From positions 434,001 to 498,000 of the forward strand of contig JAIYCV010000042.1 of NCBI GenBank assembly GCA_027487845.1: DNA of 64,000 nt, written 5' to 3'. Shown piece after piece: positions 31,819 to 43,147 of this stretch. Each line of letters starts with the position of its first letter. The stretch's first letter is position 1. Source of the stretch: Flammeovirgaceae bacterium. GTDB taxonomy: Bacteria; Bacteroidota; Bacteroidia; Cytophagales; Cyclobacteriaceae. A program made the position numbers and the translations under genes. The notes beneath the pieces are model-generated. The model did not search any database. It had not been told where the DNA came from and worked only from the letters and a program-made list of their open reading frames with translations.

Positions 31819-32364
31819 TCACTTAGAAAAAGGTACAGCAACAAGTGTCTTATCCCACAAAAAAATGATTTCCGCATCCTCTGCGCCTTGTTCCACTGAA
31901 ATTGTAAACTCTTCAAACTCCTTCTCTTGTATTAACGCTGGAACATCCACCAGCAACACATCGTTTTTTGTTTCTCTGGTTGTTTGGCGATTGAAGTTGA
32001 CACCCCAGAAGGGTGTTTTCGAATTAAATATTACTGTCCACGCATTCTGATTGGGAATGGTCCAAAGCGAATAAGTGCCTTTCGGCAATTTTTTGCCTTG
32101 AATCGTAATTTCTTCATTCGTCTCGAAAATAGTTGGCTCATTTGCTCCCGTTCGCCAAACCTTTCCATACGGCACGAGGCCCCCAAAAATTTCTCTTCCC
32201 CTTTTTGACGGGCTGTTATAAGTAACTTTTATTTTCAATCCGTCTTTTTCGTAAAAAGAAGTTTTTTCAGGGCTAATTGTTTTCATCCTGTTAAACCCAA
32301 CATAAACCAAAACCGCTAGTATGGCTACTAATGCACCTGCTGATATAATTAAAATTCTCTTCAT
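31819..32364 (-). CDS. DUF2911 domain-containing protein
   Basis: The 181-residue protein has one N-terminal membrane segment (residues about 4-24). The DUF2911 domain follows, with KIKVTYNSPSKRGREIFGGL, VPYGKVWRTGANEPTIFETN, LPKGTYSLWTIP and AWTVIFN. The family is common and exported in Bacteroidota, with no assigned activity. It is 21 bases upstream of the HisA-like gene, in the same direction. Confidence 0.9.
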   Translation of the reverse strand: MKRILIISAGALVAILAVLVYVGFNRMKTISPEKTSFYEKDGLKIKVTYNSPSKRGREIFGGLVPYGKVWRTGANEPTIFETNEEITIQGKKLPKGTYSLWTIPNQNAWTVIFNSKTPFWGVNFNRQTTRETKNDVLLVDVPALIQEKEFEEFTISVEQGAEDAEIIFLWDKTLVAVPFSK

Positions 32365-33132: not shown

Positions 33133-33185
33133 GCGTTAGTACCATTTGATCCTTGTGGAAAAGTATTCCTATTTTTAAAGGAACT

Positions 33186-34421
33186 ATGGGTAGATTTTAC
33201 GTGCTGGCTTTTTTGGGGCTTCTTCCGAACTTCGTTGCCGGTCAGCAACTTGGCTTTTCATTGAATGATGGCCGACATAAGATTAAAATACCTATTGAGG
33301 TTCAGAATAACCTGGTTATCGTTCCTGTTATTTTAAACAACCAACTCCCCCTAAAATTCATACTCGACACGGGTGTTAGAACAACCATTTTGACTGAAAA
33401 AACCTATTCAGATATTCTTCAGCTTGAGTACACCAAAAAGTACACGATTGCTGGCCCTGGTGGAGAAAAGTTGATTGAAGCCTTTATCACTAATAATGTA
33501 ACCATTGACATGCCTGGAGTTCATGGAGAAGGTCATACAATGCTCGTTTTAGAAACAGACTACCTAGAGCTTAGAAATTTTCTAGGAGCGGACATTCATG
33601 GTGTGCTGGGGTACGAGATATTCAGTCGTTTTATTGTTGAAATAGACTACGTCAATAAATGGCTCACTTTAACTCACTCAAATCAGTTTAATCCAAGCCG
33701 AAGATATCAGGCTATGAAAATGGTAGTGGAAGACACAAAACCTTACGTAACTACGGAAGTGGATATGAACGACAGCACTAAAGTAAAATTGAAACTGTTG
33801 GTTGACAGTGGCGCCAGTCACGGCTTAATACTTGAACCTGAAACCGATAGTAGAATAATAATCCCTCCCAAACAGCTGGAAAGCATTATAGGTAGGGGCT
33901 TGGGCGGCATTATTACTGGCAAAGTAGCGCGGATTAAGTCGTTAAAAATAGGCAAATACCAAATCCACAACTTGATTGCGAACTTTCCTGATGTTAACAG
34001 CTATAATGATACCCTTAAGATTGGCGGTTACGATGCATCAAGAAACGGTGCGATTGGCGGAGAAGTGTTAAGTAGGTTCACTATAATTTTTGATTTCCCC
34101 AATGAAAAGCTATATCTAAAGAAGAACAGTGACTTTAAAAAAAGCTTCTATTTCAACCTGAGTGGCTTAGATATAAAGGCGAAGGGGGCAAGCTTGCGCA
34201 GGTACGAAGTAAGTGAAGTTCGAAAAGACTCTCCAGGTGCGAGGGCAGATGTCAAAGTGGGAGATCAACTTATCTCCATAAATGGGTTACCCGCAAATGG
34301 GCTAGACCTTAACAACATTAATGGCTATTTCAACTCTAAGCCAAACCGAAAAATAACGTTGGAGATACTACGAGATGGCGTTAAAGTGAAAAAAGTTTTT
34401 CGCTTAGAAAGCCAAATCTAG
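33186..34421 (+). CDS. Exported retropepsin-like aspartyl protease with PDZ domain
   Basis: The 411-residue product starts at the ATG at 33186 with a signal peptide (GRFYVLAFLGLLPNFVAG). A TTG at 33153 would extend it unhelpfully. Two aspartyl protease-like lobes each carry a catalytic-type triad: KFILDTGVRTTILTE (about residue 58) and LLVDSGASHGLILE (about residue 212). A C-terminal PDZ domain spans about residues 340-411 (RRYEVSEVRKDSPGARADVK, VGDQLISINGLPANGL). Having both triads in one chain suggests an intramolecular pseudo-dimer. The cleavage target is unknown; the site is probably periplasmic. Confidence 0.88.
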   Translation: MGRFYVLAFLGLLPNFVAGQQLGFSLNDGRHKIKIPIEVQNNLVIVPVILNNQLPLKFILDTGVRTTILTEKTYSDILQLEYTKKYTIAGPGGEKLIEAFITNNVTIDMPGVHGEGHTMLVLETDYLELRNFLGADIHGVLGYEIFSRFIVEIDYVNKWLTLTHSNQFNPSRRYQAMKMVVEDTKPYVTTEVDMNDSTKVKLKLLVDSGASHGLILEPETDSRIIIPPKQLESIIGRGLGGIITGKVARIKSLKIGKYQIHNLIANFPDVNSYNDTLKIGGYDASRNGAIGGEVLSRFTIIFDFPNEKLYLKKNSDFKKSFYFNLSGLDIKAKGASLRRYEVSEVRKDSPGARADVKVGDQLISINGLPANGLDLNNINGYFNSKPNRKITLEILRDGVKVKKVFRLESQI

Positions 34422-34476: not shown

Positions 34477-35589
34477 ATGAAGGGAATTATCATTATTGGA
34501 GGTGGGCTTGCAGGCCTTATCGCGTCAATTCGGCTTGCTTCTGAGGGATTTATATCTACCGTTATCGAAAAAAAGAAATATCCGTTTCATCGTGTGTGCG
34601 GGGAATACATATCAAACGAAACGGTGCCGTTTTTAAAAACTTTTGGGCTGTTTCCCGAAAAATTTGATCCGCCCAACGTAAACCAGCTTCAGCTTACCTC
34701 AGTGAATGGAAAAGAGGCAATACTAGGCCTTGATTTGGGTGGTTTCGGTGTTAGCCGATTTTCGTTTGACCAATTCCTTTATGAAAAAGCGGTCGGCTTG
34801 GGCGTAAGCTTTCTTTTAGAGGAAGAAGCTATAAAAGTATCTTTTGAAGGTGATAACTTTTCGATTACGACAAATAAACGAACGCTTACTGCGGACCTAG
34901 TGATGGGCTGTTATGGAAAGCGGTCAAAATTAGATATTGTGCTCAACCGATCGTTTGTTAAGAAACGGTCGCCTTACATCGGAGTTAAGTATCACATTCG
35001 CACAGACCATCCCTCCAACAGAATTTCATTACACAATTTTAAAGACGGTTACTGTGGTGTAAGTAATATCGAGAATGGCAAAACGAATCTATGTTACCTG
35101 AGCCACCGTGAAAACATTAAGAAGTTTGGAAATCTGCCAGACCTTGAGCGCGCTGTTTTATATAAGAATCCTTATCTAAAATACTTATTCAACAATTCTG
35201 AATTTCTTTTTGACAGGCCAGAAACGATCAATGAAATTTCGTTCGAGACAAAGCTGCCAGTGGAAAATCATATTCTGATGTTGGGCGATGCGGCTGGCAT
35301 GATAACGCCCCTTTGCGGGAATGGGATGGCACTAGCAATCCATTCCGCGAAAATTGCAAGCGAGCTGGTAATTAAGCACCTTAAGCAAGTTAATTTTAAT
35401 AGGAATTTATTGGAAACAGAATACTCTACACAATGGAGAAGTTCGTTTAAAAACCGATTACGGGCAGGTAGACAGATACAAAGACTATTTGGCAGCGAAT
35501 GGGCATCTAATTTAGCCGTAAATTTGGCTAGGTACTCTAAACCAGTTGCTAGTTTTTTAGTCGCTCAAACGCACGGCAATCCTTTCTAG
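34477..35589 (+). CDS. FAD-dependent oxidoreductase of the geranylgeranyl reductase/monooxygenase type
   Basis: The 370-residue flavoprotein shows the dinucleotide motif IIIIGGGLAGLIASIRLASE (residues 4-23), the second motif YPFHRVCGEYISNETVPFLK, and the GD motif LMLGDAAGMITPLCGNGMAL. The HRVCGE segment is typical of this subfamily. Such enzymes hydroxylate aromatics or reduce isoprenoid double bonds. It stands at the left of a group with UbiA, type III PKS and a methyltransferase, so a tailoring role on a phenolic polyketide is plausible. It is convergent with the UbiA gene, four bases apart. Confidence 0.87.
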   Translation: MKGIIIIGGGLAGLIASIRLASEGFISTVIEKKKYPFHRVCGEYISNETVPFLKTFGLFPEKFDPPNVNQLQLTSVNGKEAILGLDLGGFGVSRFSFDQFLYEKAVGLGVSFLLEEEAIKVSFEGDNFSITTNKRTLTADLVMGCYGKRSKLDIVLNRSFVKKRSPYIGVKYHIRTDHPSNRISLHNFKDGYCGVSNIENGKTNLCYLSHRENIKKFGNLPDLERAVLYKNPYLKYLFNNSEFLFDRPETINEISFETKLPVENHILMLGDAAGMITPLCGNGMALAIHSAKIASELVIKHLKQVNFNRNLLETEYSTQWRSSFKNRLRAGRQIQRLFGSEWASNLAVNLARYSKPVASFLVAQTHGNPF

Positions 35590-35593
35590 TCTT

Positions 35594-36484
35594 TTATAGG
35601 TATTGACCTAAATGGCTAATCGAAAAAAAGAAATAAATAAAAAATGCGTTCAGACAAATTGCTGAGATGAAGTTGAGCCGCATTGTATTTGAGTAGTTCG
35701 CTTTTGTTTCATCTCTCCAAACCGTATAGAACCAGGTACTAAAAAATAATAGCACGGGGGCTAATGCAATTAAAAATGCCAGGGAATAATGATGAGAATA
35801 GAATGAATTAAAATATAGGATAAAGCCTATGGCGGCCATTCCGAATACAGCTTGCACAAAGAAAAAAGTTCCTCTTATTCCAAGCATAATGCTCAATGTT
35901 CTATCGCCATGCTTTGTGTCTTCCTCATGCTGATATATTTGTGTCATCGGGTAATTGCCCCAAAGCATAATACTTGTAAGTGTAGCTGGTATTAGCACTT
36001 CTTCCTTCAAGAGATTCTCAACCCCAAAATTGTTAATTGCAACATAGCACATCAGAAAAGTAAAAAAGCCCTGAAAAAGCCCCGTTACCAACCACCCGGC
36101 AATGGCATGCTTTTTTAAGCGGATAGATGGGTGGCTATACGCTTTTGAAACAAGCCCATAGATAAGTAACATGACAGAGAATAACGGACTGATCATTAGC
36201 CATCCAAGCACAACTGCAGTTAGATCGAATAATAATGAAACATAGTACAGCCCTTTTGTAACAGGTGGTGGGCTTTTTAATCCGCCAATACTTTTCTCGT
36301 CTTTATCGAAATAGCTGTTGTAGCCGTTGCTTGCTGGATATAGAAGTAAATGAATTATCAAAAACGACCAAAGAATAGTGTGTTCACCAAAGTTGGGAGA
36401 AATTGCCAAAGCGAAAAGATAAACGGGCATCAGAAAAAATGAAAAAGGAATTCTCAAGTGCAACCAGGTGGATCGTGAAAACAT
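35594..36484 (-). CDS. UbiA family prenyltransferase
   Basis: The 296-residue polytopic protein has about eight membrane segments. The first prenyl-diphosphate motif is NSYFDKDEKSIGG (N56, D60, D62). The second is YQHEEDTKHGDRT (residues about 188-200), with its acidic ligands for Mg. UbiA enzymes attach polyprenyl groups to aromatic rings or related acceptors. menA or ubiA quinone neighbours are absent; the divergent neighbour is a type III PKS (87 bases between starts), suggesting the PKS product as acceptor. This is inferred from context. Confidence 0.88.
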   Translation of the reverse strand: MFSRSTWLHLRIPFSFFLMPVYLFALAISPNFGEHTILWSFLIIHLLLYPASNGYNSYFDKDEKSIGGLKSPPPVTKGLYYVSLLFDLTAVVLGWLMISPLFSVMLLIYGLVSKAYSHPSIRLKKHAIAGWLVTGLFQGFFTFLMCYVAINNFGVENLLKEEVLIPATLTSIMLWGNYPMTQIYQHEEDTKHGDRTLSIMLGIRGTFFFVQAVFGMAAIGFILYFNSFYSHHYSLAFLIALAPVLLFFSTWFYTVWRDETKANYSNTMRLNFISAICLNAFFIYFFFSISHLGQYL

Positions 36485-36571
36485 AAGAATCAGTTGGATT
36501 TTTTCTGGTCAAGTTAATGAAATGCCAGACTAAATGAGCTAATAGGACTAATTTTTCGTTATACTTGGACA

Positions 36572-37675
36572 ATGAGTTATATTTTATCTATCGGCACGGC
36601 CAATCCACAAACAAAAGTAAGTCAGACGGCAATTTCCGAGTTTATGGTGAACGCTATGGGGCTCACGGACTATGATGCAAGAAAACTTCGAACGATTTTT
36701 AAAGCATCTACCATTCAGTCGCGCTATTCGGTAATTGAGGACTACAATCAACGCGAAGACTTCACCTTCTATCCTAATACCAGCGATTTTAATCCCTTTC
36801 CGTCTACCAAGGCAAGAATGAGCCTGTTCAAAGAATGTGCTTTGCCTTTGGCCTTGAAAGCCATTGAAAATTGCTTGCAAAGAGCAACGGAAGTCGATTC
36901 AATGGAAATTACTCATTTGATAACCGTAAGCTGCACTGGAATGTATGCCCCCGGCTTGGACATTGATATTGTGAAAGCGCTACATCTTTCTAATTCAATA
37001 GAGCGAACATCAATAAATTTCATGGGCTGCTACGCTGCTTTCAATGGAATGAAGCTGGCAAACGCTATCTGCGAAAGCAATAAAAAAGCCACTGTGTTGG
37101 TGGTCTGTTTAGAGCTGTGCAGCATTCATTTTCAACGCGAAGTAACGGACGATAATTTGTTGGCCAACGCTCTGTTTGGCGATGGTGCCGCGGCTCTTCT
37201 AATTCAGTCGAAAAAACACACTGGCATAAATCTAAAAATGGAAAGTTTCTTTTGTGAAATAGCGAGAGACGGTGAAAAGGAAATGGCTTGGGCAATTGGC
37301 GATCAAGGCTTCGAAATGAAGCTTTCTTCTTACGTTCCCAACATCATTCAGTCGGGTATAAAAACGCTAACCACTTCATTGCTTGGCAAAATTAATGGCA
37401 CCCTAAATGACATTTCATTTTTTGCTATTCATCCGGGAGGCAAGCGAATTTTGGAAGTGATTGAAACAGAACTCGGGCTTACCAAAGAACAAAACAAATT
37501 TGCTTATTCTGTTTTACAAAATTTTGGAAATATGTCTTCGCCAACTGTTCTTTTTGTGCTGAACGAGATTTGTAGGTCACTCGAACAGAACGATGATAAC
37601 AAACGAATTATGAGTTTTGCATTTGGCCCTGGCCTAACGATGGAAAGTATGATTTTAAGAATAGAATATCAATAA
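36572..37675 (+). CDS. Type III polyketide synthase
   Basis: The 367-residue chalcone/stilbene synthase-like enzyme has the complete Cys-His-Asn triad: C121 in TVSCTGMYAPGLD, H287 in FFAIHPGGKRILE and N320 in QNFGNMSSPTVLF. It condenses malonyl-CoA units on an acyl-CoA starter to give pyrones, resorcinols or phloroglucinols. The starter cannot be read from the sequence; long fatty acyl starters are usual in bacterial relatives. Its stop overlaps the ATG of the methyltransferase gene by one base, so they are coupled. Confidence 0.95.
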   Translation: MSYILSIGTANPQTKVSQTAISEFMVNAMGLTDYDARKLRTIFKASTIQSRYSVIEDYNQREDFTFYPNTSDFNPFPSTKARMSLFKECALPLALKAIENCLQRATEVDSMEITHLITVSCTGMYAPGLDIDIVKALHLSNSIERTSINFMGCYAAFNGMKLANAICESNKKATVLVVCLELCSIHFQREVTDDNLLANALFGDGAAALLIQSKKHTGINLKMESFFCEIARDGEKEMAWAIGDQGFEMKLSSYVPNIIQSGIKTLTTSLLGKINGTLNDISFFAIHPGGKRILEVIETELGLTKEQNKFAYSVLQNFGNMSSPTVLFVLNEICRSLEQNDDNKRIMSFAFGPGLTMESMILRIEYQ

Positions 37676-38379
37676 TGCTTTCATTTCAAAAACGTTCAAG
37701 TCAAGTTGAAATAATGGATGATCTTCTTTGCGATGGAGAGGTTGTTCATCAAACATTGCGTGAACTGGAAATAATCAATCGGTTGCTTGGTGGCAATTAC
37801 GTTACCGTTAGTGGGGTCAAAAAGTTACTTGCAAATAAATCGCAAAAAGAAATTTCGATAGCCGATTTGGGCTGTGGCGGTGGCGATATTCTTAAACTTA
37901 TTTCGACCTGGGGAAAACGCAACCATTTTGAATTTCAATTGATTGGAATTGATGCTAACCCGCACATTATCGAGTTTGCAAAAGCCAATTCCAAAGAATA
38001 TCCATCCATCGAATACAAATCCATCAACGTTTTTTCAGATTCGTTTAAAGCGTTGTCGTTTGATATTGTGGTAGCCACCTTATTTACACATCATTTTTCT
38101 GATGCAGAACTGGTGCAGCTAATTAAAACATTAAAATCACAAACAAGCATTGGTATTGTGATCAATGATATTCATCGTCATTGGTTTGCTTTTCATTCCA
38201 TTAGACTTCTTACAAAGTTCTTTTCAAAATCAACCATGGTGAAATACGATGCGCCCTTGTCAGTTTTGCGGGCTTTCAAAAAGAGAGAGCTTATTTCAGT
38301 GCTTGCTCAAGCAGGTGTTGAGAAATATTCATTAAAATGGAAATGGGCTTTTAGATGGCAGTTAGTTATTGAGTGTTGA
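37675..38379 (+). CDS. Class I SAM-dependent methyltransferase
   Basis: The 234-residue protein has motif I IADLGCGGGDILKLIS (about residues 62-77), the acidic end of strand 2 in LIGIDANPHIIEFAK and motif IV-like FDIVVATLFTHHFSD. Translation is coupled to the type III PKS (TAATG). Methyltransferases in such pairs usually O- or C-methylate the polyketide ring, as described for SrsB in Streptomyces. The exact target here is unknown. Confidence 0.9.
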   Translation: MLSFQKRSSQVEIMDDLLCDGEVVHQTLRELEIINRLLGGNYVTVSGVKKLLANKSQKEISIADLGCGGGDILKLISTWGKRNHFEFQLIGIDANPHIIEFAKANSKEYPSIEYKSINVFSDSFKALSFDIVVATLFTHHFSDAELVQLIKTLKSQTSIGIVINDIHRHWFAFHSIRLLTKFFSKSTMVKYDAPLSVLRAFKKRELISVLAQAGVEKYSLKWKWAFRWQLVIEC

Positions 38380-38435: not shown

Positions 38436-38981
38436 ATGAGAAAATCAATCAGTCTTTTCGCGTTAGTTTTTACTTTGAGCTCGTGCGGTAGTAGCATTTT
38501 TGGCACCAAGGTTAAAGAACCGTTTAGTGGAGCTAGTTACCAATCTAACAATCGCTTCTTTAGGGCTTCTGGTAAAGGCGAGAGTTCATCCGACAACGTT
38601 GCGTTGGGCAAAGCCGATCTGGAAGCAAAATCTCAATTAGCCGGCCAGGTAAACACTACCATGAAACAAGTTGCAGACCAGTACCTTGGCCAAACTGAAA
38701 ATGAAAAAGCGGCCGATGTTGCGGATAAATTTCAAAGTTTGGTTAGGCAAGTGATGAACACTTCTATTGCAGAGGTGCGTAAAATTGGTCAGGAAAAATA
38801 TTTCGATAAGAAAGCCAACAAATACACTGTTTTCATTGCCTATGAAATAAAGAAAAACGCAATGTTCCGTTTTATGAAAAAGCAAGCGGCTGTCGATAAA
38901 ACCATAAACGAAAAACAACTTGCCCTCATTCAAAAAATATTGGATGAAGAGGAAAAAAAAGCGGATGCCGATGATAAATAG
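38436..38981 (+). CDS. LPP20-like lipoprotein
   Basis: The 181-residue lipoprotein has the signal RKSISLFALVFTLSSCGSS (Cys about residue 17). The mature part contains FRASGKGESSSDNVALGKAD then LEAKSQLAGQVNTTMKQVAD, and KYTVFIAYEIKKNAMFRFMK, a pattern of LPP20-type domains. The C-terminus is charged and helical. The role is unknown. It is downstream of the methyltransferase by 56 bases and may or may not be part of that unit. Confidence 0.75.
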   Translation: MRKSISLFALVFTLSSCGSSIFGTKVKEPFSGASYQSNNRFFRASGKGESSSDNVALGKADLEAKSQLAGQVNTTMKQVADQYLGQTENEKAADVADKFQSLVRQVMNTSIAEVRKIGQEKYFDKKANKYTVFIAYEIKKNAMFRFMKKQAAVDKTINEKQLALIQKILDEEEKKADADDK

Positions 38982-42373: not shown

Positions 42374-43147
42374 ATGCCGAAGTTGCTCATTCTATCGTGC
42401 TTTTTTCTTTCTACTAGTTGCTTTTCACAAATACGTTTGAGTGCCCTTGTTCTAAAGCCTAAAGAATCATTTAGGATCATTAATTCGGACATTTTAGTGT
42501 TAGATACGTTGGTCATGGCCGATTCCTCGAACATAATTTTAGACGAGTTTTCCAAGGAAAATTTTATTCATGTAAAGTGGGCAAAAATTGGATATAGATG
42601 CACAATTGACGGGTCGGGCAAAAATGGCCTAAAAGGTATGCCCGGGAGACACGGCTTAAATGGAAATTCACTTTGCGCTAATGGTAGAGACGGAAAAAAT
42701 GGCGAAAATGGATCTGCTGGAGAGGATGGAAAAAATCTGTCTTTATACTTAAATGAGATTCTGATCAATGGAAGTTTAATAGTTTACCTCCAAGGCGGGG
42801 ATGGAGGAAATGGAGGAGATGGGGGAGACGGAGGAAACGGGTCTCCAAAAAGCAAAAATTGTACGGGCGGTAGTGGAGGGAATGCCGGCAATGCCGGCAA
42901 TGGGGGCGATGGGGGTAAAGGTGGAACACTGAGTGTATTTGGAGAGCGAGAACTGGATCTTTTCGCATTTAGTAAGAATTTAGTTTGCGTCAACCTGGGT
43001 GGGAAAATGGGGCTTGGCGGCAAAAGAGGTTTTGCGGGCAAAACTGGCTACGACCCAACTAAAGACGATATCTTAAAACACAACGGAAATAGTGGGGAAA
43101 ATGGTGTCCGTGGCATCCAAGGATCTTTAATTATCGAGATCAAATGA
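42374..43147 (+). CDS. Secreted glycine-rich repeat protein (collagen/PGRS-like)
   Basis: The 257-residue protein starts with a signal peptide (PKLLILSCFFLSTSCFSQ; a lipoprotein reading at Cys16 is less likely). Beta-type sequence to about residue 75 precedes Gly-rich blocks: a GxxGxxG block at about 76-120 (KNGLKGMPGRHGLNGN), a (GG[DN]) run at about 138-185 (GGDGGNGGDGGDGGNG), and a third block near 210-250. Such repeats form polyproline-like or stacked left-handed helices. There are five or six Cys. The function is unknown; a surface role is a guess. Its start is 11 bases after a terminator and it ends 4 bases before recJ. Confidence 0.75.
   Translation: MPKLLILSCFFLSTSCFSQIRLSALVLKPKESFRIINSDILVLDTLVMADSSNIILDEFSKENFIHVKWAKIGYRCTIDGSGKNGLKGMPGRHGLNGNSLCANGRDGKNGENGSAGEDGKNLSLYLNEILINGSLIVYLQGGDGGNGGDGGDGGNGSPKSKNCTGGSGGNAGNAGNGGDGGKGGTLSVFGERELDLFAFSKNLVCVNLGGKMGLGGKRGFAGKTGYDPTKDDILKHNGNSGENGVRGIQGSLIIEIK

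Follow-up and report, generated by a model that had tools for sequence, protein, structure and literature searches.

A conserved locus joining a type III polyketide synthase to a distinct UbiA-superfamily prenyltransferase in Bacteroidota

Genes and features of the locus

The window, meaning the whole 64,000-nucleotide stretch of Flammeovirgaceae bacterium contig JAIYCV010000042.1 that was analysed, contains four adjoining intact genes, all of which were found to be open reading frames where a first-pass annotation had placed them. These encode a flavoprotein of the FAD monooxygenase-like/geranylgeranyl-reductase (GGR) superfamily (34477-35589, forward strand), a UbiA-superfamily prenyltransferase of a distinct subfamily (35594-36484, reverse strand), a type III polyketide synthase (PKS; 36572-37675, forward strand) and a class I SAM methyltransferase (37675-38379, forward strand). 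The PKS stop and methyltransferase start codons overlap in the sequence TAATG (37673-37677, forward strand), in agreement with the translational coupling initially proposed. The divergent starts of the UbiA and PKS genes are separated by an 87-bp gap (36485-36571), within which no match to TAnnTTTG, the Bacteroidota -7 box, was found; as this motif occurred at chance frequency in the window (75 observed versus 75.9 expected), promoters were left out of the argument. No Rfam match at the gathering score was obtained between positions 32000 and 40000.

The PKS matched the CHS-like N and C domains above cut-off (PF00195, 106.8 bits; PF02797, 90.9 bits). PKS18, a pyrone synthase, was among its closest solved relatives, and alignment paired residues C153, H287 and N320 with C175, H313 and N346 of PKS18, hence on sequence criteria the enzyme is a type III PKS. 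Of the catalytic triad originally given as C121-H287-N320, the histidine and asparagine stood, but C121 pairs with S143 of PKS18 and the nucleophile is instead C153. The active-site region holds W240 and M249; W240 aligns with Leu266 of PKS18, and its tentative assignment to Trp281 of ArsB was made by the spacing to M249 (G284 and M293 in ArsC) and the PKS18 alignment only; 3vs8 was absent among the matches listed for the PKS. According to PMC6274091, Trp281 of ArsB versus Gly284 of ArsC sways the outcome between resorcinol and pyrone, and PMC9927152 reports a Trp at the ArsB position in PkqA and in the MNU77 PKS. W240 was present in 143 of the 145 PKSs compared, so that it does not discriminate inside that set.

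A bulky residue, F187, occupies the tunnel position of A209 in PKS18, and was found in 78 of 82 PKSs from UbiA-containing sets (65 with UbiA in the locus and 17 from Hymenobacter-type loci, 5 of which were genome-tested). It was also found in 7 of 25 triads and in 7/7 of another group, both without UbiA in the locus, as well as in 9/10 far and 6/7 gammaproteobacterial alignment rows. The tunnel residues gave no clear guide to starter length and were not used for that purpose, F187 being frequent also in PKSs without UbiA in the locus.

The prenyltransferase belongs to the UbiA superfamily, with a PF01040 score of 70.6 bits (cut-off 34.2) and a predicted structure of the UbiA fold (pLDDT 96.0; fold matches 4tq4, 4od4 and 4od5), whilst all seven of its NCBIfam matches fell far under cut-off. 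The acidic motifs of this superfamily are NDxxDxxxD and DxxxD, both of which had initially been ascribed to the window protein. The first motif (N56-S-Y-F-D60-K-D62) does retain D60 and D62, and the second (Q185-x3-D189) retains D189, but the first Asp of the latter is replaced by Gln in 58/58 alignment rows. Thus, rather than the canonical pair, every row carries NSxxDxD and QxxxD, with a subfamily signature of NSxxDxD/QxxYQHxxD in which the H is found in most rows. The MenA of the same genome reads D-I-E-S-D at the motif 2 position, and owing to Gln185 the canonical Mg2+-diphosphate chemistry is not assured for the window enzyme. This separate MenA (L002; TIGR00751, 269.1 bits) means that the window UbiA, which has no TIGR00751 match, is not the genome's only MenA, the outcome that would have spoken against the first-pass reading, and looks dedicated, as previously supposed. 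Two polyprenyl diphosphate synthase genes indicate that prenyl donors exist in this organism.

The flavoprotein matched PF01494 above cut-off (46.8 bits), and its AlphaFold model (pLDDT 94.4) gave as best folds the PltA halogenase, 3nix, Mpy16 and 3-hydroxybenzoate 6-hydroxylase, with the GGR-like 3oz2 at rank 24. A halogenase identity was rejected, since the WxWxIP motif of flavin-dependent halogenases was absent from the translation when inspected by eye. Its best NCBIfam match was the GGR superfamily model TIGR02032; at 90.6 bits against a cut-off of 158.8, the designation geranylgeranyl reductase was not adopted, and the protein is most likely a ring hydroxylase. The methyltransferase matched PF13649 above cut-off (44.1 bits), and its nearest named kin appear to be UbiG/UbiE-like, under the respective cut-offs (NF004851, 148.3 bits versus 243; TIGR01983 UbiG, 35.4 bits versus 102.95).

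Co-occurrence and gene order

Among 148 sampled genomes of the Cyclobacteriaceae, the family of the window, 114 encoded both the PKS and the UbiA subfamily, three the PKS only (G032, G103 and G119, the last 60% complete), none the UbiA only and 31 neither (Fisher p = 8e-29, kinship ignored). The UbiA gene lay within 5 kb of the PKS gene in 99 genomes, at least 53 kb away on the same contig in nine, and on another contig in six. Among the matches listed, the flavoprotein gene was present in 115 of the 117 PKS genomes (missing in 2) and the methyltransferase gene in 104 (missing in 13). When mapped onto a PKS tree of 103 rows, the UbiA state required two changes, as compared with 23.3 in shuffles.

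The four-gene set recurs across a large branch of the Bacteroidota and in many genera, bearing out the conserved neighbourhood that the first-pass annotation had put forward for checking. A UbiA match was found in 25 of the 29 best PKS relatives (L007-L035), in each of which a short stretch around the PKS was searched, and the order FAD(+) UbiA(-) PKS(+) MT(+) was seen wherever the stretch covered all four genes. In Chitinophagaceae loci, the genes instead form a UbiA-PKS-MT-FAD run on one strand, in which mechanical ORF calling makes the ends of UbiA and PKS overlap at several loci.

Plasmids from Psychrobacter, Deinococcus, Methylobacterium and Roseomonas also carry triads of PKS, methyltransferase and flavoprotein genes; in a search covering the plasmids alone, no UbiA match was present on them. 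Gammaproteobacteria-labelled records carrying the same PKS clade gave a UbiA match in 0 of 7 cases, two of these records being only 1.1 and 1.3 Mb. In viral contigs, four stretches matched a pattern and none was a PKS relative. Neighbour clustering for extra pathway genes yielded, in the 22 largest clusters listed, groupings that follow taxonomy or look mixed. No neighbour was common to all 13 unlinked UbiA genes; a DsbA-like (CGWC) gene was near five of these (L183-L185, L189 and L193), and methyltransferases were near those of L187 and L192.

Proposed pathway and alternative readings

Alongside the observed gene integrity, conserved linkage, co-occurrence of UbiA with the PKS clade, separate MenA and predicted folds, we consider it fairly probable that the four genes constitute one dedicated pathway to a prenylated, methylated and hydroxylated resorcinol (quinol/quinone) lipid, of which the product and prenyl acceptor are inferred. 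The PKS would elongate an acyl starter using malonyl units, and aldol closure of the chain would give a 5-alkylresorcinol-type ring; the methyltransferase would methylate the ring or a phenol; the flavoprotein would hydroxylate, rather than reduce, yielding a hydroquinone oxidisable to a quinone; and the membrane UbiA would attach an isoprenyl chain to the aromatic polyketide, the order of these steps being putative. The product may serve a membrane redox or protective role. The earlier interpretation is therefore partly supported, and its 'possibly prenylated' can be strengthened because the presence of UbiA tracks the PKS so closely, although the product is still a predicted one.

It is conceivable, though we hold it unlikely, that the product is a prenylated quinone with a ring of polyketide rather than chorismate origin, in which case a large branch of the Bacteroidota would possess, in addition to menaquinone, another redox lipid with an isoprenoid tail. 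The PKS would then stand in place of UbiC, with UbiA-, UbiG- and UbiH-like partners, and a short starter chain would be complemented by a UbiA-supplied tail, which would fit the bulky F187, a residue also found in PKSs without UbiA.

Less probable still is that the flavoprotein saturates a UbiA-added polyprenyl chain, as prenyl reductases do in tocopherol or archaeal lipid biosynthesis. The TIGR02032 match, the presence of 3oz2 among the fold matches and genome G074, in which the flavoprotein and UbiA genes are ~1 kb apart with the PKS and methyltransferase ~105 kb away, are in keeping with such a role; however, halogenases and an aromatic hydroxylase rank above 3oz2, and the flavoprotein is kept together with a PKS and methyltransferase where this UbiA subfamily is absent (loci L093 and L095, 519 and 514 bits; flavobacterial genomes G364 and G457), and likewise in the plasmid sets within the plasmids searched. 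This retention makes ring hydroxylation likelier than prenyl-chain reduction.

There is a small chance that the UbiA is unrelated to the polyketide, serving for example another lipid, and is a mere neighbour of a phenolic-lipid triad. Triads without an adjoining UbiA in the compared loci, plasmids and literature clusters, the opposite strand of UbiA in the window, the unusual chemistry suggested by the conserved Gln185, and the other genes, including methyltransferases and the DsbA-like gene, near some unlinked UbiA genes would agree with this; against it are the absence of the UbiA from all 31 genomes without the PKS, its retention with the PKS in the nine genomes where they lie at least 53 kb apart, and the same-strand run in Chitinophagaceae. 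That the PKS forms alkylpyrones O-methylated by the methyltransferase, with no quinone, as in the comparison pair BpsA/BpsB, seems very doubtful despite the relationship to PKS18, given Trp240 at the position of Leu266 in that enzyme and at the presumed ArsB/ArsC switch, and a retained hydroxylase-like flavoprotein that fits a resorcinol better.

With the preferred pathway to a prenylated resorcinol lipid, a dedicated and unusual UbiA tied to type III PKS clusters predicts a specific product class, namely prenylated resorcinols or quinols, across many genera of Bacteroidota. Such a product may represent a novel type of membrane lipid. Menaquinone is usually regarded as the quinone of Bacteroidota, a view that would change if the product were a redox lipid.

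Comparison with known systems

The Streptomyces srsABC cluster is of the type III PKS-methyltransferase-flavoprotein type, and the analogy drawn with it at the outset holds, in that genes for a SAM methyltransferase and an FAD oxidoreductase accompany that of the window PKS. The same likeness extends to the Streptomyces and mycobacterial pkqABC polyketide-quinone operons, which are PKS-methyltransferase-oxidoreductase clusters (PMC9927152); these belong, however, to another phylum, and 'UbiA' appears nowhere in the available part of that paper. The cyanobacterial hidABC (hierridin) cluster (PMC8086630) and a planctomycete methyltransferase-oxidoreductase-PKS operon (PMC10896814) share the three enzyme types with the window, but in the parts of these sources available are described as three genes without UbiA. 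The planctomycete PKS was shown to make pentadecyl- and heptadecylresorcinols, whilst the role of its oxidoreductase was left open in the available text (PMC10896814). A single Raphidiopsis cluster with a prenyltransferase is noted as unique in the accessible portions of this cluster literature.

With regard to the prenyltransferase, Ubi-297/EboC are likewise UbiA-superfamily enzymes of Bacteroidota, including Algoriphagus, but reside in an ebo cluster with no adjoining type III PKS in the available part of PMC9235831, and the NCBIfam EboC model did not match the window UbiA at E <= 0.001. The window enzyme shares superfamily and fold with MenA, and weakly matched the DHNA polyprenyltransferase model NF004750 (24.6 bits, cut-off 346), but differs in lacking the first Asp of motif 2 and a TIGR00751 match. 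Type III PKS clusters without a characterised product have been flagged in Cytophagia genomes (PMC12565237 and PMC10752948, in the parts available), and no description of UbiA with a type III PKS in Bacteroidota was found in the literature searched. In its core of PKS, methyltransferase and flavoprotein, the locus has the established alkylresorcinol/polyketide-quinone triad of srs, pkq, hid and the planctomycetes, and the element that is new relative to these triads is the near-obligate UbiA.

Enzymes of the four-gene locus

The four genes proposed in the first-pass annotation were found intact at 34477-38379, with all reading frames open and family matches in agreement. An FAD flavoprotein (34477-35589, forward), a UbiA prenyltransferase (35594-36484, reverse), a type III polyketide synthase (PKS; 36572-37675, forward) and a methyltransferase (MT; 37675-38379, forward) are encoded. 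The divergently oriented UbiA and PKS genes are separated at their starts by 87 bp, and PKS and MT overlap at TAATG. Genes for an aspartyl-protease/PDZ protein (33153-34421) and a protein without a Pfam match (38436-38981) flank the locus; kin of both turn up beside it in close relatives, and these genes look like lineage synteny rather than pathway members. Another gene in the window (42374-43147) encodes a protein full of GGDGG/GNGG repeats.

Alignment with the solved type III PKS PKS18 placed the catalytic triad at C153, H287 and N320 (C175, H313 and N346 in PKS18); C121, previously named as the nucleophile, aligns instead with S143. W240, aligned with L266 of PKS18, and M249, nine residues on, would by their spacing correspond to the ArsB W281/ArsC G284 switch and ArsC M293 described in excerpts of PMC6274091. 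Tryptophan occupied this position in 143 of the 145 PKS compared, the remaining two, both flavobacterial, having phenylalanine; judged from sequence, W240 would favour aldol cyclisation, giving a resorcinol. In the flavobacterial-type FAD-MT-PKS sets at L093:8075-10965 and L095:6162-9052, the flavoprotein is 44-45% identical to that of the window and the PKS, with Phe at the W240 position, only about 27-30%, a pattern suggestive of replacement of the PKS.

Both acidic motifs had been ascribed to UbiA. The first holds, with N56, D60 and D62 invariant in a 58-row alignment of window-type UbiA (A2), but the first Asp of the second is Gln185 in 58/58 rows, where the genome's own MenA reads D-I-E-S-D. 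The AlphaFold model has a UbiA fold (pLDDT 96.0), best matched by A. fulgidus UbiA, then by archaeal DGGGP synthases, UBIAD1 and A. pernix UbiA, and we read the protein as a consistent distinct subfamily, not a decayed enzyme. PF01040 gave five matches in the genome, four above cut-off. An NCBIfam scan of the matched stretches identified a heme O synthase (TIGR01473, 233.5 bits, cut-off 210.3), MenA (TIGR00751, 269.1 bits, cut-off 102.15) and, below cut-off, proteins like prenyltransferases of the geranylgeranylglycerol-phosphate group and like LA_0991; the window UbiA reached no NCBIfam cut-off. The outcome named beforehand as refuting the proposal, that the window UbiA would prove to be the genome's only MenA, did not hold, in keeping with the dedicated role suggested for it. 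The boldest proposal is that it probably prenylates the aromatic product with donors from the genome's two polyprenyl synthases, to which Gln185 is a real reservation.

In fold, the flavoprotein best resembled PltA-type halogenases, 3nix from Cytophaga and 3-hydroxybenzoate 6-hydroxylase; a GGR-like protein ranked 24th among the matches. WxWxIP is the flavin halogenase motif, and the flavoprotein contains none. Two genomes without window-type UbiA (G364 and G457) retain it together with PKS and MT, and similar sets occur on plasmids of Psychrobacter, Deinococcus, Methylobacterium and Roseomonas, that of a Microvirga plasmid having an annotated NAD-binding protein where others have the flavoprotein. 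No window-type UbiA was found on plasmids bearing PKS-MT-FAD sets, in a search of plasmid sequences only. Given this retention without UbiA, the flavoprotein most likely acts on the ring. The MT is UbiG/UbiE-like, under model cut-offs, and both C- and O-methylation are possible, since planctomycete and cyanobacterial enzymes differ in this respect (PMC10896814, in part).

Co-occurrence and gene order

Among 148 genomes of the window's family, 117 encoded the PKS (E below 1e-60), and UbiA (E <= 1e-10) was present in 114 of these versus 0/31 others (Fisher p = 8e-29, ignoring kinship). By list comparison, the flavoprotein (E <= 1e-25) and MT (E <= 1e-15) were found in 115 and 104 of the 117, respectively. 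Among the 31, PKS matches were mostly weak (E of 1e-8 or higher) or absent, two (G004, G131) having a divergent PKS (E about 1e-35) along with FAD and MT. PKS without UbiA was confined to two genomes of one genus (G032, G103) and the 60% complete G119, whilst G094, of the window's genus, and G143, of genus g40, lack both genes held by their congeners. In 99 genomes UbiA and the PKS were within 5 kb of each other; nine had them 53 kb to 1.7 Mb apart on a single contig and six on separate contigs, which may partly reflect assembly breaks; UbiA fragments, mostly at contig ends, were seen in G021, G037, G038 and G058. Two genomes (G063 and G120; loci L044 and L042) harbour a divergent PKS and unlinked UbiA with no flavoprotein or MT at these thresholds, a hint that PKS and UbiA could form a minimal pair. 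Of 395 genomes sampled more widely across the phylum, 178 had a PKS (E <= 1e-20); thirty hand-chosen PKS-bearing genomes were searched for UbiA, which was present in nine (E <= 2.4e-52; PKS 46-53% identical to the window's), weakly matched at 29% identity in G345, and absent from 20.

The immediate surroundings of the PKS gene were inspected for its 29 best relatives (L007-L035): 25 showed a UbiA match (52-72% identity), and many of the stretches ended too soon to reveal the flavoprotein. Longer stretches were taken from 60 hand-chosen loci over the family and phylum (L036-L095) and the best 80 of 592 named loci (L096-L175). Chryseolinea, Algoriphagus and kin have FAD(+)UbiA(-)PKS(+)MT(+), with UbiA and PKS adjacent and, in a few cases, FAD at some kb distance; UbiA-PKS-MT-FAD on one strand is the arrangement of Chitinophagaceae and a Sphingobacterium MAG, Pedobacter has UbiA(-)PKS(+)MT(+)FAD(+), and Hymenobacter, Pontibacter and Adhaeribacter have FAD-PKS-MT with UbiA not nearby. 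All tested genomes of this last type encode window-type UbiA elsewhere (L100, L101, L106, G218, G309 and G527, of which G309 and G527 fall with Hymenobacter on the PKS tree). Several of the best 80 loci (L096-L175) showed only part of the set, either PKS alone or PKS and UbiA.

In Hymenobacter-like genomes a further gene adjoins the unlinked UbiA (L183:3870-5638, L184:4612-6318, L185:4633-6534), with a weak MT match in L183 (PF13649, 22.6 bits, under cut-off), none in L185, and no match in the window's genome in a search without positive control. Two lineages have a DsbA-like gene, its CGWC motif identified by eye, no more than about 3 kb from the unlinked UbiA (L183:6360-7082, L184:3140-3904, L185:3214-3885, L189:1627-2304, L193:1867-2544). 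Methyltransferases were also seen directly upstream of unlinked UbiA (L187:5583-6389; PF08241, 73.7 bits) and ~1.2 kb from it (L192:5437-6249; UbiE family PF01209, 223.7 bits).

Phylogeny of the PKS

A maximum-likelihood tree was inferred from 103 PKS, 77 UbiA-positive (window counted) and 26 UbiA-negative by genome search, leaving out 38 of the 140 loci of L036-L175 whose UbiA state was untested or weak. UbiA state required two changes (2-3 over bootstraps) versus 23.3 in shuffles, on a tree with some weakly supported deep forks and a program warning of long branches meeting. The most economical reading would have UbiA gained once and lost once, the loss falling in a lineage from records labelled Gammaproteobacteria. 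The PKS of seven records so labelled (L136, L152, L121, L124, L145, L160 and L147), including Legionella gratiana, L. jamestowniensis and a Legionellaceae MAG, fall inside the Bacteroidota clade; they are 46-51% identical to the window's and nested beside Sphingobacteriaceae (fork 97/87), which looks like horizontal transfer. UbiA was matched in 0/7 of these records, weak evidence of absence in two because they hold only 1.1 and 1.3 Mb. Ile replaces M249 in six of the seven.

Mislabelling or binning errors are possible for L125, L135 and L132: UbiA and PKS, joined by FAD and MT in L125 and L135, are present in MAG records labelled Anammoxibacter and Rickettsiales, and a record named Flavobacterium sp. 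SUN052 clusters with Spirosomataceae.

Relation to known systems

The literature searched, with subscription papers mostly outside its coverage, yielded no description of a UbiA and type III PKS pairing and no characterised product for the four-gene set. The terms type III, T3PKS and resorcinol are absent from the text of a Bacteroidetes-wide natural product survey (PMC9248904), and antiSMASH listings for Fulvivirga and Reichenbachiella, reported in parts of PMC12565237 and PMC10752948, include type III PKS with no characterised product. Among cyanobacteria, one hierridin-like cluster that includes a prenyltransferase is called unique in the relevant section of PMC8086630. Ubi-297 of Bacteroidota is a different case, being EboC within the ebo cluster, according to a portion of PMC9235831.

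There is good support for a functional link among these genes; the polyketide itself is probably prenylated, and the product may be a redox lipid. The four-gene set is real and conserved, its PKS, MT and flavoprotein core being of the kind found in the srs, pkq, hid and planctomycete clusters, from which it differs by a near-obligate UbiA.
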